This document shows positions 680-18,669 of a stretch of DNA of 21,448 nucleotides, in pieces. Each line of letters opens with the position of its first letter. Positions within the stretch are counted from its first letter, which is position 1. The notes under the pieces were generated by a model, which saw only the letters and a program-made list of their open reading frames with translations, was not told the origin of the DNA and made no database searches. Both the position numbers and the translations under genes were made by a program. Source of the stretch: a virus; the IMG/VR virus record IMGVR_UViG_3300042549_000891, positions 1 through 21,448 of that record. The stretch is one strand, 5' to 3'.

Positions 680-852
680 TACTTAAATCTTTTACTTGCT
701 TTGTAGTAATAACGAATTGCAAATACCCCTGAAATAATAGCAGTCAAACCTGCTACCAAAGTTACAAATGGTTGTACCTGTGTTAGTGTTAATGATGCTG
801 CCGTAAGGCTTATACCTGTATTAACTAATGCTTGACTGCTATCTTGTGTCAT
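679..852 (-). CDS. holin-like small membrane protein
   Basis: A 57-residue protein. The N-terminal half (MTQDSSQALVNTGISLTAAS) is polar to mildly hydrophobic. Residues 28-47 form one clear hydrophobic span, followed by a positively charged tail (IRYYYKASKRFK). Small size, a membrane span and a basic C-terminus fit a phage holin-like protein that would permeabilise the inner membrane. Its start overlaps the stop of the 47-residue gene (TAATG at 852), and its own stop overlaps the start of the next gene (TAATG at 679), so the three are translationally coupled. No holin family can be named from sequence alone. Confidence 0.65.
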   Translation of the reverse strand: MTQDSSQALVNTGISLTAASLTLTQVQPFVTLVAGLTAIISGVFAIRYYYKASKRFK

Positions 853-995
853 TAATCTTCTGTTTTTTCCTCTTTAGGCTTTTGCTCAAGTTCAAGCTGA
901 CCAAAGAAAGTTAATAATGGTAATCCAAACTCTGTAGGGATTTTGTTAATAAATGCCTTTAAGTCGTTTAATTGCTGCTCGTTTAATGTAATCAT
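852..995 (-). CDS. small hypothetical protein, first gene of the lysis-type cassette
   Basis: A 47-residue protein: a charged helical N-terminus (MITLNEQQLNDLKAFINKIP), a short hydrophobic patch (FGLPLLTFFGQL) and a Glu/Lys-rich tail (KPKEEKTED). I do not recognise the family. It is the first gene after the consensus promoter at 1014-1044, with a short A/T-rich leader and no Shine-Dalgarno sequence. Its stop overlaps the start of the holin-like gene. The tight coupling makes it likely to be a genuine gene despite its size; a role in lysis is inferred only from its neighbours. Confidence 0.6.
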   Translation of the reverse strand: MITLNEQQLNDLKAFINKIPTEFGLPLLTFFGQLELEQKPKEEKTED

Positions 996-1013: not shown

Positions 1014-1044
1014 CAAATATAGTTATTTGTTACGGATTAACAAA
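1014..1044 (-). promoter_or_regulatory. Bacteroidota-type promoter for the lysis-type cassette
   Basis: On the minus strand the sequence reads TTTG (1044-1041), a 19-base spacer, then TATATTTG (1021-1014). This matches the known Bacteroidota sigma factor consensus of TTTG at -33 and TAnnTTTG at -7. Transcription would start at roughly 1007-1010, just before the ATG at 995. The -33 element lies inside the last codons of the homing endonuclease gene and the spacer covers its stop codon. Confidence 0.75.
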
Positions 1045-1728
1045 TGACAAAGGAAGTAATGCCCATTTATAGCCTTTATGGGTTCTATTATAATTTTTTA
1101 AACACTCTGTCATACAAGCAGCATTAGCTTTTAATTCTTTATAAATATATCTTCTATTGTACCAAACCTTTATCAAATTATCATTTTTATCATATTGACC
1201 TATTGGTTCATATATAGATAGCCAATATTGTTCAGTTTTTCTTTTATGTTCATCTGTCCAAGAACCATTTGATTTCCCTTTAAAATACTCTGATAACTTT
1301 CTTCTATGTTCTTCAGATTTTGGTCTATTTTTTAATGCAATAGATATTTTTAAATTTCTTTCTTTTGTAAGAGGGGGTTTATGTTTTGCAGCTTCTCTTA
1401 ATTTAGCCTTTGTTTCTTCAGATGCTTTTCTACCTTTATTCCATAATCCATTCATTTCCTCTCCACCATCGGTTAAATTAGCAAGTGTGCCTGTCTTTTT
1501 ATCTATTCTACCATACAAAGAAATAAGTTCAATTTCCTTCTCTAATGCTTGTTCTCTTGTTAAATCATCAAATAATATTTCTACATCATAATTGGTTCTT
1601 GAAACTATTGATTTCCAAATTATGTTTTTTCTTTGATTCTTCTCATAAGCCCTTTTTATATGAGTAGCTATGCCAATATAAAAAGGTTCATTCTTATCAA
1701 GCCTAATATGTCTGTAAACGTATGCCAT
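1030..1728 (-). CDS. GIY-YIG homing endonuclease with NUMOD motifs
   Basis: A 232-residue free-standing homing endonuclease. The N-terminal GIY-YIG nuclease domain (about 1-90) shows VYRH at 4-7, YIG at 17-19, an Arg at 26, a Glu-rich helix (ALEKEIELI, 61-69) and the ANLTDGGE motif (83-90). Residues about 98-160 carry repeated NUMOD3-like DNA-binding motifs (KGRKASEETKAKL; RPKSEEHRRKLSEYFKGK). Residues about 175-223 look like a NUMOD1-type helix-turn-helix (IGQYDKNDNLIKVW). Such enzymes cut DNA lacking the element and spread by repair. The gene appears more A/T-rich than its neighbours. Its last eight residues, LPLSFVNP, closely resemble the end of the upstream gene, LPLPFSNP. No intron or intein is evident. 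Confidence 0.9.
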   Translation of the reverse strand: MAYVYRHIRLDKNEPFYIGIATHIKRAYEKNQRKNIIWKSIVSRTNYDVEILFDDLTREQALEKEIELISLYGRIDKKTGTLANLTDGGEEMNGLWNKGRKASEETKAKLREAAKHKPPLTKERNLKISIALKNRPKSEEHRRKLSEYFKGKSNGSWTDEHKRKTEQYWLSIYEPIGQYDKNDNLIKVWYNRRYIYKELKANAACMTECLKNYNRTHKGYKWALLPLSFVNP

Positions 1729-1733
1729 TAAAG

Positions 1734-1741
1734 CAAAGATA
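1734..1741 (-). promoter_or_regulatory. possible -7 promoter box of the homing endonuclease
   Basis: The minus strand reads TATCTTTG, a full match to TAnnTTTG, ending six bases before the endonuclease ATG at 1728. A transcript from it would be nearly leaderless. No TTTG is present at the expected 19-21 bp spacing (TTTT occurs at about 15 bp), so the promoter is uncertain. Confidence 0.35.
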
Positions 1742-1745
1742 AAGA

Positions 1746-2072
1746 TTAAGGGTTAGAAAAAGGCAGAGGCAAAGAAATTATCGGTGGATTAACTTGATTC
1801 TCTATTTGAGCATCTAAATTAAGGTCTAAAGCCTCTACATCTATTGAATCATCTAACCAACCACAAACGATGTCATAGGTTAACTCCTCGTAAGGTATAA
1901 AGTTAGCAACATCATCCTTTGAGAATGATTGACTGCCGTAAACACTTGCAAAGTATTCTACTCCGTTAATTGTTTCTTTAGCAAACCTTGACCAATGAAC
2001 ATTTATAACAAAATCTGTAAGCGTTCCGTCAGTTGGAACTGAATCCATTTGGTTAATGTAAAAGTATTTCAT
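1746..2072 (-). CDS. small conserved phage protein, function unknown
   Basis: A 108-residue acidic protein. The N-terminus has the pattern YxINQMDSVPTDG followed by VINVHW (about residues 23-27) and VYGSQSF (44-50), then FIPYEELTYDIVCGWL (58-73) and a Pro/Leu-rich end (PPIISLPLPFSNP). I recognise this kind of protein as recurrent in tailed phages near tail-fibre or lysis genes, but its role is not known to me. The start is ATG at 2072, one base after the fibre stop. Downstream lies the inserted homing endonuclease, whose C-terminus resembles the end of this protein. Confidence 0.75.
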   Translation of the reverse strand: MKYFYINQMDSVPTDGTLTDFVINVHWSRFAKETINGVEYFASVYGSQSFSKDDVANFIPYEELTYDIVCGWLDDSIDVEALDLNLDAQIENQVNPPIISLPLPFSNP

Positions 2073-2073
2073 A

Positions 2074-5049
2074 TTATTTATTTAAGATTAATTGTTTTAA
2101 TTCTTCTATTTGTGCTTGTTGCTGCTGTATAGCCTTTACTAATATTGGGATAAAGTCTTGTCTTAAAGATTTGTATGTTATAGCATTCTCATCTTCATCT
2201 TTATTTTTCCATTCATCAATTAAATCAGGAAAAATACTTTCAACTTCTTGAGCAATAAATCCTCTTACATTTTTTCCATTATTACCACTTTCAACTTTCC
2301 AATCATATTTTCTTGGTTTTAGTGCCATAATAGCATCCAATCCAATATCTAAATCTTGAATGTTTTCTTTTAATCTTTCATCAGAAATAGCTGATATACT
2401 TTGATTAGTTGCAAACACTGTACCAGCTCCATTAACTTTAAATCTATATGCAGAATTTGTTATATCCCTTACATAATAAGTTTCTTCTGCATTTGTAATA
2501 CTTGCAAACATAGCACCATTATCGTCAAATCTAAAGCCATCAGCAGCATCTATATTAATAGTTGTTTTACCAATTAATACTCGTGCATCCGATGTGATTC
2601 TCATTTTTTCGCTTGGCGCACCAGCATTTGAAGTATTAAACTTTATATCACCAGTTCTATTTCCAGCACTTGTTGTAACACCTTCTATCGTAGCAAATGA
2701 TGTGTTTGTTCCACCATTATTTGATGCCCATATTACTGCATATCCAGCACCAGCAGTTGAAACTGGGTCGTATAATCTTACATGACCATCTTGAATTTCT
2801 AATTTAGCAGCAGGACTACTCGTTCCGATTCCAACGTTACCAGCTACTATATTTAATACATCTGTATTTGTTGCATCTCTAAATCCTAAAATATTACTTC
2901 TTGCATAGATTCTGCCTTGTAATGTAGTTCCATCAAATTTGAAAAAACTTACAATATTATCATCTACACCAGCATTGTTTCTACCATTTAATATCATTGT
3001 AGTTCCACCACTATTTGAATTTGCCGTTACACTACTTGAGAATGTAGCAGCTTGATTTGCTGCTAATGTTAATGCAGTTGTGCCACCGCCTGTTTCTAAA
3101 GTAATTGTTCCACTCGCATTATAGTTAGCTAATGTAACTCTGTCAGATGACCAATATAAAGCACCACTACCTGCAGTCATCCCTGTTAATCTATATGCTG
3201 ATGCTTGAACTGTACTTGAAAAAACTGCACTCGTTCCGTTTAATGCACCTGTTAAAGTACCACCTGTTAAAGGTAGGTAAGAACTTAAAGCAGAACTTGT
3301 AATATATCCTGCACCATTTGTGATTTGGTCATTATTTGTAGGTATTGTGATTACCCCTGTTGTGCTATTGTAAGCACCACTACCTGCCACAAAACTTAAA
3401 GCTGCTCTTGACCTTGCATCCGTAAAGTAAAGGTTTGTTCCTTCTGTTACTTGTGTCGTTGTATAATCGCCACTTGCTGCCACAACCGCACCTGTTCTAC
3501 CAAATACACTTGTAACAGGATAATTAATATTAGATGTCAATGCTATTGTTCCACTTGCATCAGGCAAAGTCCAAGTTCTTGCACTTGATACTGTTGTAAT
3601 TGGCTGTAAATAATTAGTAAACCCTCCTGACTTTAATACTAATGTACCAATAGCCGTAGCGGTATCTCTTGATAAAGCTGCCAACCAATTTCCTGATGTA
3701 TCAGTAGCAAAAACATTTTGAGCATACAAATCAAAAAGACCTAAAGTAACATTAGCGGTTGCGCCTGTGTATGGTACATAGCTACTTAAATTAGATGTCA
3801 ATGCAATAGTACCTGATGCATTTGGAAATGTGTAAGTTCTATTAGTTGTATTGTCAAAATTTAATTGAGAATATTTTGCTGTATCTGCATCATATAAAGA
3901 TAAAATACTATAATTTGAAATTTTACTTGCATAAATTGCAAAGCTATTTCCAAGTGCTGTAACAGGTGCGCCAAAAGTTAAATTTAAAGCATTGTTAAAA
4001 ATAACAGGAGTATTAAAAGACTTTAATCCTGTTATTGTTTGAGTAGTATCAAGAGTAACATAATTACCTGCAGGTTGCTTTGCATTAAACGTACTCCAAT
4101 CTGTTGAACTTAACTTACCTGTATTTGTAGCCGAAGCAACAGGCAGATTAAAAGTATGAGTAGCCGTTGAACTTGATATGTTAAAATCCGTTCCACTTGT
4201 TCCTGTCGCTAAAAATTGTACTTGTCTTGTTAAGTTATTTAACGAAGTTAATCCCTTAGAAAATGTTGTAACTACTTGGCACAAATGATTGTTCTCTGTG
4301 TGTAAAGTAACTACTCTTGTATCCACGTTAACATATATTCTAATTGCTATTCTATCAGTTATTGCTAAAGTAGTTTGAGTAACAGGTATAGCAAAATAAT
4401 AAGGACTTAAAGTTGTACCGTTTGTTAAATATTCAGGTACGCTTTGGCTACTTCCTATTAAAGTAAAAGTAGTGCCGTCATACTTATAAACCTCTGCATA
4501 TACATAAGGATTGTGATTATTAGAGTTTACACTAAAATAAAACTCACAATTAAAGTTTCCTGCAGGTACTTCTAATAAAGCAGGGTCATTAGCATCAGTT
4601 AAGTAACTTGCTATGTATCCATTAGTTGAAGCCGTAATATCTGTTCCTGCACCTGCAATAGGGTCTTTACTAAATTCTCTATAAGCAACACCTCCTATTG
4701 TACCTTGACTTACACTTGAATTTAGATAATAAGATACAGAACTTCCCCCACCTGTTGATGTTGGGAAATCTGCCAATGCGCCATCCCCTCTAACATATTG
4801 AGTAGCATCCCCTGCAAATCCAATATTAATAGTTCCTGCACTTGTAATTGGACTGCCTGTTATCGTTAAAGCGTTTCCTGTTTCTGTAATCCCTACACTT
4901 GTAACAGTACCCGTTGTGGCAAATAAATTAGCTATCTGTAATAACGTAATCTTTTTACTTACTCCTGTAATCGGATCGCCTATAATTGTTAAATCAGAAG
5001 TTTGTGGTGCAACGTTTGTCGCTAACTGATTAATTTTTTTTGATTCCAT
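2074..5049 (-). CDS. tail fibre / receptor-binding protein with C-terminal endosialidase-type chaperone
   Basis: A 991-residue fibre protein. The start at 5049 is chosen because it overlaps the preceding stop (TAATG) and gives the N-terminus MESKKINQL; an in-frame ATG 30 bases upstream would lie inside the previous gene. The N-terminal part and shaft are Thr/Ser/Gly/Asn-rich beta repeats typical of trimeric fibres (GTVTSVGITETG, SNLSSYVPYTGATANVTLG, TEGTNLYFTDARSRAAL, LPLTGGTLTGAL). A more globular segment lies at about 110-260. The last 103 residues begin SDERLKENIQDLDIGLDAI and contain GFIAQEVESIFP and a final helix rich in Gln and Glu: the Peptidase_S74 intramolecular chaperone, which helps trimerisation and cleaves itself, probably just before Ser889. 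It is likely the host-binding protein. Confidence 0.92.
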   Translation of the reverse strand: MESKKINQLATNVAPQTSDLTIIGDPITGVSKKITLLQIANLFATTGTVTSVGITETGNALTITGSPITSAGTINIGFAGDATQYVRGDGALADFPTSTGGGSSVSYYLNSSVSQGTIGGVAYREFSKDPIAGAGTDITASTNGYIASYLTDANDPALLEVPAGNFNCEFYFSVNSNNHNPYVYAEVYKYDGTTFTLIGSSQSVPEYLTNGTTLSPYYFAIPVTQTTLAITDRIAIRIYVNVDTRVVTLHTENNHLCQVVTTFSKGLTSLNNLTRQVQFLATGTSGTDFNISSSTATHTFNLPVASATNTGKLSSTDWSTFNAKQPAGNYVTLDTTQTITGLKSFNTPVIFNNALNLTFGAPVTALGNSFAIYASKISNYSILSLYDADTAKYSQLNFDNTTNRTYTFPNASGTIALTSNLSSYVPYTGATANVTLGLFDLYAQNVFATDTSGNWLAALSRDTATAIGTLVLKSGGFTNYLQPITTVSSARTWTLPDASGTIALTSNINYPVTSVFGRTGAVVAASGDYTTTQVTEGTNLYFTDARSRAALSFVAGSGAYNSTTGVITIPTNNDQITNGAGYITSSALSSYLPLTGGTLTGALNGTSAVFSSTVQASAYRLTGMTAGSGALYWSSDRVTLANYNASGTITLETGGGTTALTLAANQAATFSSSVTANSNSGGTTMILNGRNNAGVDDNIVSFFKFDGTTLQGRIYARSNILGFRDATNTDVLNIVAGNVGIGTSSPAAKLEIQDGHVRLYDPVSTAGAGYAVIWASNNGGTNTSFATIEGVTTSAGNRTGDIKFNTSNAGAPSEKMRITSDARVLIGKTTINIDAADGFRFDDNGAMFASITNAEETYYVRDITNSAYRFKVNGAGTVFATNQSISAISDERLKENIQDLDIGLDAIMALKPRKYDWKVESGNNGKNVRGFIAQEVESIFPDLIDEWKNKDEDENAITYKSLRQDFIPILVKAIQQQQAQIEELKQLILNK

Positions 5050-9136: not shown

Positions 9137-10090
9137 TTATGCTAAGATAAACTTAACGATCTCGTCTGGGAACGCTACGTTTACACCCATTTTGAACTCA
9201 GATACGAAACGAACTTGATCAGCTTCTTTTGCGTAGAAAATTTCAAACTTTTCTTCTTCGTTCAACAAATCTGTTCCTAAGAACAAGTTGCTTAAACGCA
9301 TTGCATAAACCTTGTTAGTTCCGTTTAAACCTTGTAAAGCAATAACTTTAATTGGAGTACCAGGTAATACGAACTCGCTATCAGCTTTCACATCAATTGA
9401 ATAATGGAATTGGTTAGCGTTCTTTAATGCAATAGTGTAAGTTCTGAAAACGTCTTGACCACAGAAGATAGTCATATCGTCAGCAGCTACAACTTGTGCA
9501 GGGATTGCTTGATATACACCATCAAAAATGCTGATTACATTCGCAGCAGTAATTGTGCTTAAAGGCGCACCACTAATGAAAGTAGAAGCGTTAGCAGCTA
9601 CAACACCAGAAGCAGCTCCGATTAACTTAACAAGTCCGTCAAATCGAGAAAGATTTGCGTTGCCTGAAGTTGTATCGCCCTGCCATAACGCAACTTCTAA
9701 TTGAGCAGCAATTGTTTTTGCTTTCTTATCTGCAAACTCTTGCTCAAAAGGAATAGAATCATACATTGATCCTGTTGGTAATGCTTTTTGTAAGTACTTA
9801 GCTTCTAAGTCTTTAGGACAAAGAGATTCGTTTACTTTAATTTTTCCAACTGTTACTGTTCTTTGAGTAAAAGTTGTTGAACCAGATGCAGTAAATCCGC
9901 AAGATCCACCTGCTTGGAAGATTGCGTCTGTGTCCATAATGTTAATTGTTTCAGCAGACTTTACGCCTACCATAACGTTACCTGCGCTTTTAATTAAAGC
10001 TGCAGTCTTTGCACCTAATACAGAATCAGTTACCAATAAGGCTTCGTTTTGCTCTGTATAAGCGGCTAATGCGTCTACGTTAAATCCCAT
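9137..10090 (-). CDS. major capsid protein
   Basis: A 317-residue protein starting MGFNVDALAAYTEQNEALL. Features expected of an HK97-fold capsid protein: an N-terminal helical arm, a beta-rich middle with FTQRTVTVGKIKVNESLCP (about 74-92), the long helix around EQEFADKKAKTIAAQLEVAL (116-135) and ALWQGDTTSGNANLSRFDGL just after it. The second half contains IFCGQDVFRTY and a beta-rich C-terminal A domain ending DEIVKFILA. It follows a protease and a scaffold-like gene, the standard capsid assembly order, and is followed by a terminator. No delta-domain-sized N-terminal extension is present, in keeping with a separate scaffold. The A-rich leader before the start is typical of Bacteroidota genes. 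Confidence 0.85.
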   Translation of the reverse strand: MGFNVDALAAYTEQNEALLVTDSVLGAKTAALIKSAGNVMVGVKSAETINIMDTDAIFQAGGSCGFTASGSTTFTQRTVTVGKIKVNESLCPKDLEAKYLQKALPTGSMYDSIPFEQEFADKKAKTIAAQLEVALWQGDTTSGNANLSRFDGLVKLIGAASGVVAANASTFISGAPLSTITAANVISIFDGVYQAIPAQVVAADDMTIFCGQDVFRTYTIALKNANQFHYSIDVKADSEFVLPGTPIKVIALQGLNGTNKVYAMRLSNLFLGTDLLNEEEKFEIFYAKEADQVRFVSEFKMGVNVAFPDEIVKFILA

Positions 10091-18054: not shown

Positions 18055-18669
18055 TTATTTACACGATTTTAAAATTTCTAAACATAAATCTTCTGGAATT
18101 TTACTTCGTTCATAAGAACCTTTTAAACCCTGTGTTCCTGTTCTTGATCCTCTTGGAGCAGCAATATGGCAACTATCCCCATTCTTGCACATAGGTCTTG
18201 GAATCCATTTTTCGCTATTAGTCCATATATCAGTTGGCTTCATTCTTGTATCCCCATATTGACAATATGTAATACTTTGTCTTTTGAAATTATCCATAAA
18301 ATCCATTTTCCTCAATAAACCTCTGGGGTTTTCAATAAAGAAGTATTTAGGCTTAAAGTAGTTAATTATTTCTATTGTTTTTTTTGCTAATTCAATACCA
18401 AGTTTAGCAGTATCTGTTTTAGGTATGTAAGCATTTTTTCCTCCTGTCCAATGATGCCCTAAAGCTGCAACACTAAATCCCGTACAAGGGGGGGATGCCC
18501 ATATAATATCAGGTTGAAATGGAACTTTATTTATATCAAAATCTAAAATACTTGTAACATAATCAATCTTTTCAAAATTAATTAAATCACTTGAAAAAAC
18601 TTCATAGCCTAAAATTTCAGATGCTTTGCCTATTGAACGGCTGCCTGCAAACAATTCCAATACTTTCAT
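18055..18669 (-). CDS. compact C5-cytosine DNA methyltransferase
   Basis: A 204-residue enzyme that would transfer a methyl group from S-adenosylmethionine to C5 of cytosine. Motif I is LELFAGSRS (4-12), motif IV is SPPC with catalytic Cys62, motif VI is ENPRG (113-117), and a motif-VIII-like block QYGDTRMKPTDIW lies at 137-149. It is far shorter than typical enzymes (300-400 residues). I see no sizeable target-recognition domain and no clear motif X near the C-terminus, which is common in small phage versions. A likely role is protecting phage DNA from restriction. The gene start overlaps the stop of the winged-helix-like gene (ATGA). No partner restriction enzyme is visible. Confidence 0.85.
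   Translation of the reverse strand: MKVLELFAGSRSIGKASEILGYEVFSSDLINFEKIDYVTSILDFDINKVPFQPDIIWASPPCTGFSVAALGHHWTGGKNAYIPKTDTAKLGIELAKKTIEIINYFKPKYFFIENPRGLLRKMDFMDNFKRQSITYCQYGDTRMKPTDIWTNSEKWIPRPMCKNGDSCHIAAPRGSRTGTQGLKGSYERSKIPEDLCLEILKSCK

Follow-up and report, generated by a model that had tools for sequence, protein, structure and literature searches.

How does a homing endonuclease gene come to lie between two related copies of the end of one small phage gene, with that gene still at full length and the promoter of its neighbour still in place? The question is raised by the window, by which we mean the whole stretch of 21,448 nt that was analysed (positions 1 to 21,448 of the viral IMG/VR record IMGVR_UViG_3300042549_000891). 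The preliminary description of this DNA had proposed that the endonuclease either brought a replacement end for the small gene or captured the original end as its own C terminus; comparison with relatives indicates that both hold at once. Our overall reading, which we regard as very probably correct, is that a GIY-YIG-type homing endonuclease entered the 3' coding end of a DUF7936 gene together with a replacement for that end and reads into the native end that it displaced. The features concerned, all on the minus strand, are as follows.

1746-2072, minus strand: small target gene of 108 aa, DUF7936 family (PF25590; Pfam, PHROG 7802), kept at full length.
1749-1772, minus strand: replacement for the 3' end of the small gene (LPLPFSNP), putatively imported with the endonuclease and common to carriers L009, L028, L029 and L012.
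1734-1741, minus strand: TATCTTTG, a -7-type box 5 nt upstream of the endonuclease ATG, assigned to the imported unit.
1030-1728, minus strand: GIY-YIG-type homing endonuclease ORF of 232 aa (PHROG 314, homing endonuclease, 5e-22; NUMOD3, 5e-6).
1444-1728, minus strand: GIY-YIG-like nuclease domain, residues ~1-95, with residues invariant in 23 relatives.
1063-1335, minus strand: DNA-binding region (NUMOD3 plus I-HmuI-like HTH), residues 132-222, ending in KGYKW.
1033-1056, minus strand: native 3' end that belonged to the small gene (LPLSFVNP), captured as the apparent endonuclease C terminus.
1014-1044, minus strand: native downstream promoter TTTG-N19-TATATTTG, with the same spacing in nine loci of the window's class.
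852-995, minus strand: 47-aa gene downstream of the native promoter, found directly after the small gene in endonuclease-free relatives.

The small gene matches DUF7936 at E=2.8e-18 and 67 bits, against a curated cut-off of 27, and 80 viral relatives align to its residues 1-108 or nearly so. Read on the minus strand, it ends in ..NPPIISLPLPFSNP-TAA and is followed by TCTT, TATCTTTG, CTTTA and the endonuclease ATG; the endonuclease ORF in turn terminates in ..KGYKWALLPLSFVNP-TAA, followed by the 8 bases CAAATAAC and by TATATTTG at 1014-1021. Both junctions had been described correctly to the base (LPLPFSNP-TAA plus 4 bases before TATCTTTG, LPLSFVNP-TAA plus 8 bases before TATATTTG), and the TTTG-N19-TATATTTG promoter is present as claimed, its TTTG at 1041-1044 falling within the last endonuclease codons. 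The duplicate ends said to flank the endonuclease can likewise be seen in the window, at 15 of 24 identical bases, a weak DNA similarity that a repeat finder run on the window did not report as a repeat; the window alone was for this reason insufficient, and the claim needed relatives.

Viral loci carrying the small gene were fetched (80 in total, 67 of them without an endonuclease of this kind alongside), and the junctions of the endonuclease-free loci sort into classes. In the class comprising L003, L011, L014, L015 and L035, the gene ends in LPLPFVNP-TAA-CAAATAAC (or CAAAATAC)-TATATTTG-TGAATAAAATAAAATAATATG, with the next gene immediately after. The 84-nt right junction of the window (end, stop, promoter and start of the next gene) matches endonuclease-free L015 at 79/84 positions, where shuffled queries reach at most 43/84, and it is from this comparison that the likeness of the two ends draws its significance. 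The small gene of these relatives thus ends directly before the TATATTTG promoter, in a sequence that matches the endonuclease end and not the upstream one, so that the native gene end is the right-hand one. To judge from these alignments, the native end of the small gene now serves in the window as the C terminus of the endonuclease.

The nuclease domain of this enzyme carries the variant motif YRH-x8-FYIG and, across 23 relatives, invariant YRHIRLDKNEPFYIG, R26/R33, E65/E67 and N84, comprising the conserved Arg, Glu and Asn of a GIY-YIG catalytic domain. Pfam GIY-YIG (PF01541) matches 4 of the 23 family members, with a best E of 0.001, and Foldseek returns the UvrC GIY-YIG N-domain at probabilities of 0.8-0.97 with E>0.05; we make the GIY-YIG assignment tentatively. 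I-HmuI is an intron-encoded HNH enzyme. Its structure (PDB 1u3e) ranks first in Foldseek (E=9e-3), and in profile comparison its DNA-binding region is matched at E=7e-4, with the match ending near profile position 220; the DNA-binding regions are alike, whereas the nuclease domain here is GIY-YIG-like instead. The predicted structure has its last strand at 220-224 and pLDDT below 50 for the final residues (230-232), and the captured codons are in this model located past the folded enzyme. A search of the genome collection with the endonuclease returned zero relatives, as did a search among phage records with the protein encoded at 9137-10090 (virion structural by PHROG). The TAnnTTTG boxes and the best-scoring relatives of the endonuclease, from Flavobacterium and Bacteroides phages, point to a phage of Bacteroidetes type. 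The window also encodes a C-5 cytosine DNA methylase (PF00145) at 18055-18669.

Coincidence of a native gene end with an endonuclease end was found in eight complete cases, namely the window and seven further genes from three phage groups, with tails that differ among the seven (FTNP, FQNP, FSNPQLSL.., SNPAKI and KDSENI among them). The right ends of L084, L083, L082, L088 and L090 match endonuclease-free loci at 97-99.6% over 171-238 nt, and those of L086 and L092 at ~85%. The group 1 endonucleases L084, L083 and L082 share 89-100% protein identity with the window copy and carry other tails: LPLPFVNP-TAACAAAATACTATCTTTATAA in L084 (endonuclease-free match L033, 97%), LPLPFTNP-TAGGAATAATGAGG in L083 (L023, 98%) and LPLPFTNP-TAATTTATTTGAATATTTAAC in L082 (L055, 99%). 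In group 2 (~74% identical), L086 ends in LPFQNP, with a best endonuclease-free match of 85%, and L088 in LPFSNPQLSLQIKNNENEVQTNQTISAGH, matched by endonuclease-free L170 at 99.6% over 238 bases; in group 3 (~62% identical), L090 ends in PWSNPAKI (~97% over 175 bases, 80/81 at the end itself) and L092 in PWKDSENI (85%). The match to endonuclease-free loci starts in all cases right past KGYKW, KHKW or FK and crosses the stop into the next gene, with three different fusion points for the three groups. These comparisons indicate that the right end in each recipient is its native one and that the tail is in frame directly after the end of the conserved DNA-binding domain. Searching by pattern for the conserved end of the endonuclease yielded no additional contigs. 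Cases within each group have common ancestry, every locus is an uncultured viral contig, and the three groups may share one ancestral fusion, so that the eight cases are not eight independent inventions. Separately, the L083 endonuclease is a mosaic at residues ~120-140, where a 60-nt NUMOD3 stretch shares 65% identity with the window copy as against 88-90% for its neighbours.

The fate of the target gene varies among these carriers. The small gene retains its 108 aa unshortened in group 1, in keeping with the preliminary claim that the target is left whole, whereas in group 2 it is shortened to 106 codons; L170 has ~24 more, whose counterpart is now the L088 endonuclease tail. In L082, the endonuclease with the captured small-gene end (3986-4699) comes straight after a tail-fibre-like gene and the 8.6-kb contig lacks the small gene, so the target is not kept in every case. 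By alignment, the native sequence downstream has stayed in place, promoter included, and the target gene is of full length in the window's group; the expectation that insertion would preserve the downstream promoter, there assigned to genes with a putative role in lysis, was thereby borne out. A second candidate end-capturing family, found at the group 2 junction (L168, L169, L183, L205, L229 and L233) and presumably NUMOD4/HNH-like by its M.xIPGYPxY start, was rejected: its members have a normal end, ..KNKTTLIYA, and no gene-end capture.

The left end behaves differently from the right one. The sequence LPLPFSNP-TAA-TCTT-TATCTTTG is common to L009, L028, L029 and L012 despite their differing right flanks, and TTTATCTTTGCTTTAATGGC occurs in 4 viral contigs, all of them carriers, after the small gene and before an endonuclease. 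Between the window and L028, the gene end is 96-98% identical and the sequence further upstream 62-88%, most of the endonuclease is 100% identical, and the first 60 nt beyond it drop to 77%. Between L090 and L092 of group 3, the last DUF segment and the gap are 100% identical; identity is 95-100% for the greater part of the endonuclease, falling near the endonuclease end (85, 87 and 73%) and ranging over 48-93% downstream. Left end and endonuclease body are on this pattern a pair that moves together. The end nearest to the imported one in other phages is that of endonuclease-free L010 (71/75 bases), so the imported end alone is no mark of an endonuclease. Positions -31 to -26 of the gene end, at which the replacement is unlike the majority of endonuclease-free alleles, were considered as the cleavage site and rejected, as L010, L039 and group 2 fit poorly. 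In L012 (2120-2740), the imported gene end, the promoter box and the first ~26 bases are joined to another, 190-aa GIY-YIG-type endonuclease body, which is found in L073 after the TATATTTG promoter; as this joint falls no more than 30 bases into the endonuclease gene, the left part is exchangeable as a module.

Taken together, the sequences suggest a mobile unit made up of a replacement 3' end, a stop, a promoter box and a GIY-YIG-type endonuclease, inserted inside the DUF7936 coding end. The earlier placement of entry at the 3' end of the small gene therefore stands as to the gene end and shifts as to the exact point, which would lie between NPPI.. and LPLPF, inside coding DNA, and not beyond the stop. 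From there the endonuclease reading frame would continue into the recipient's displaced gene end, where the native stop codon would terminate it. We infer that the endonuclease cuts intact alleles near the insertion point and that repair of the break copies the unit, the body of the upstream gene providing left homology and the LPLPF-coding stretch common to endonuclease tail and recipient providing right homology, and that carriers would be protected by their recoded replacement end. The tail would then be a tolerated by-product of the fusion, one that supplies homology for the right arm and leaves the downstream promoter undamaged. A constant left end with a recipient-specific right end is the pattern expected from break repair with two homology arms.

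The strongest competitor to this homing scheme holds that an ancestor acquired the tail in a single capture and that it was then passed on as part of whole segments, through phage recombination and not through endonuclease-driven homing. Fusion points are indeed alike within a group and phages recombine freely, yet the boundary at the endonuclease tail is sharp, left end and endonuclease are near-identical between differing flanks, as break repair predicts, and the three groups have three fusion points; we consider this course of events unlikely. Far less probable is a tandem duplication of the small-gene end that came first, with the endonuclease landing between the copies and importing nothing: the ends do resemble each other in protein and order, as a duplication would have it, but the left copy is nearer to ends of other phages and shared among carriers with differing right flanks, the right copy always fits the local endonuclease-free class, a mosaic across phages that disfavours duplication, and no doubled end without an endonuclease was noticed in the displayed part of 247 compiled endonuclease-free DUF7936 ends. 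That LP.FxNP is an ordinary C-terminal motif of the endonuclease family, resembling the gene end by chance or convergence, has very little left to recommend it; the peptide is short and its two copies in the window share only 15/24 nt, as noted, but at the DNA level the identity runs on past the stop through promoter and next gene, the tails are recipient-specific, and family endonucleases at other positions terminate in GYKWEYYK or similar with the tail absent, no close relative at an unrelated locus having been found to end in LPLSFVNP. The preliminary description had named such relatives, or endonuclease-free relatives dissimilar at the junction, as evidence against its own reading, and strong similarity was found at the junction instead. 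Finally, although many GIY-YIG endonucleases are intron-encoded, a self-splicing intron that houses the endonuclease and restores the gene can practically be dismissed, as the upstream gene is full-length with a stop of its own, and a group I intron was rejected for want of any Rfam match at E<=1 in 700-2400.

The promoter boxes bear on how such a unit, entering by the homing route favoured here, would be expressed. TAnnTTTG occurs 20 times on the minus strand of the window and 18 times on the plus strand, so the -7 box alone is not rare. In the window's class, the TTTG of the native downstream promoter lies inside the captured codons, and retaining these codons retains the promoter. Among the fetched loci, a TAnnTTTG ends 3-5 bases upstream of the ATG at 12/76 endonuclease starts and at 0/205 small-gene starts, a spacing that suggests leaderless endonuclease messages. 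As for the claim that the insertion gives the endonuclease a promoter box, the box TATCTTTG is there, but no TTTG was found 16-23 bases upstream of it, and its role as the endonuclease promoter is only plausible.

Related endonucleases also occur at the start of DUF7936 genes, in L091, L102, L105, L107, L113, L117, L132 and L147. These loci have a stop-ended remnant of the gene's first codons upstream of the endonuclease (for example MATTYKWVRHK-stop, MALETKWVVSLYFN-stop and MKYWYINQL..) and a full-length gene downstream. Remnants match endonuclease-free gene starts at 54/66 bases in L117 and 50/66 in L147, and at only 42-44/66 in L102, L105 and L132. A mirror form with a replacement start in place of a replacement end would be the natural reading of this arrangement.

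The closest known counterparts are the mORFs of fungal mitochondria (Allomyces macrogynus atp6; Glomus sp. atp6/atp9/cox2/nad3), in which a foreign C-terminal end arrives with an endonuclease ORF and replaces that of the target, leaving the native end downstream at 91-98% identity to close relatives, as against 64-81% for the inserted end (PMC3630166). The phage carriers likewise show a foreign C-terminal end brought by an endonuclease ORF, as seen in the left end shared despite differing right flanks, and a native end that lies downstream and is closer to relatives than the inserted one. The native end of mORFs is described as a downstream remnant, whereas in the phage unit it is the in-frame endonuclease C terminus, with the native stop in use; the captured end, moreover, holds part of the downstream promoter (in the window's class), and there are several tail types in different recipients. 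By analogy, phage units and mORFs would work alike, and we do not claim membership among mORFs for the former.

In phages, the free-standing Seg (GIY-YIG) and Mob endonucleases of T4 are intergenic, and several of their genes contain promoters of neighbours, according to the sections of the T4 account used here (PMC2988022). They resemble the present unit in being free-standing and beside conserved genes, where neighbours' promoters must survive and flanks are co-converted, and differ in that a replacement gene end is not described in those sections (PMC2988022). The same sections report that mobE of Aeh1 splits nrdA into two gene pieces, reassembled as protein (PMC2988022). As far as that source goes, both endonucleases lie within coding sequence without intron or intein; unlike nrdA, the DUF7936 gene gains a new end and remains one piece. 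A search of the open-access literature found no phage precedent for a replaced gene end. The feature is real, and the strategy has already been reported for fungal mitochondria; new are the occurrence in phages, the use of the native end as C terminus of the endonuclease itself, the presence of several tail types from one recipient to another and the survival of the downstream promoter.

More generally, such end-exchange units might constitute a third general route of phage endonucleases into coding sequence, beside introns or inteins and split genes, combining a replacement 3' end (a 5' start in the mirror form) with a tail rewritten per host by the displaced gene end, and always keeping right-arm homology and the neighbour's promoter, a generalization that we see as evenly balanced between holding and failing. 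It is an acknowledged problem how a free-standing homing endonuclease gains entry to a packed phage genome and leaves genes and promoters undamaged; here an answer can be read from the sequence. The displaced gene end is a natural footprint that records both the entry site and the allele that was entered, and this footprint lets homing be counted in uncultured phages.
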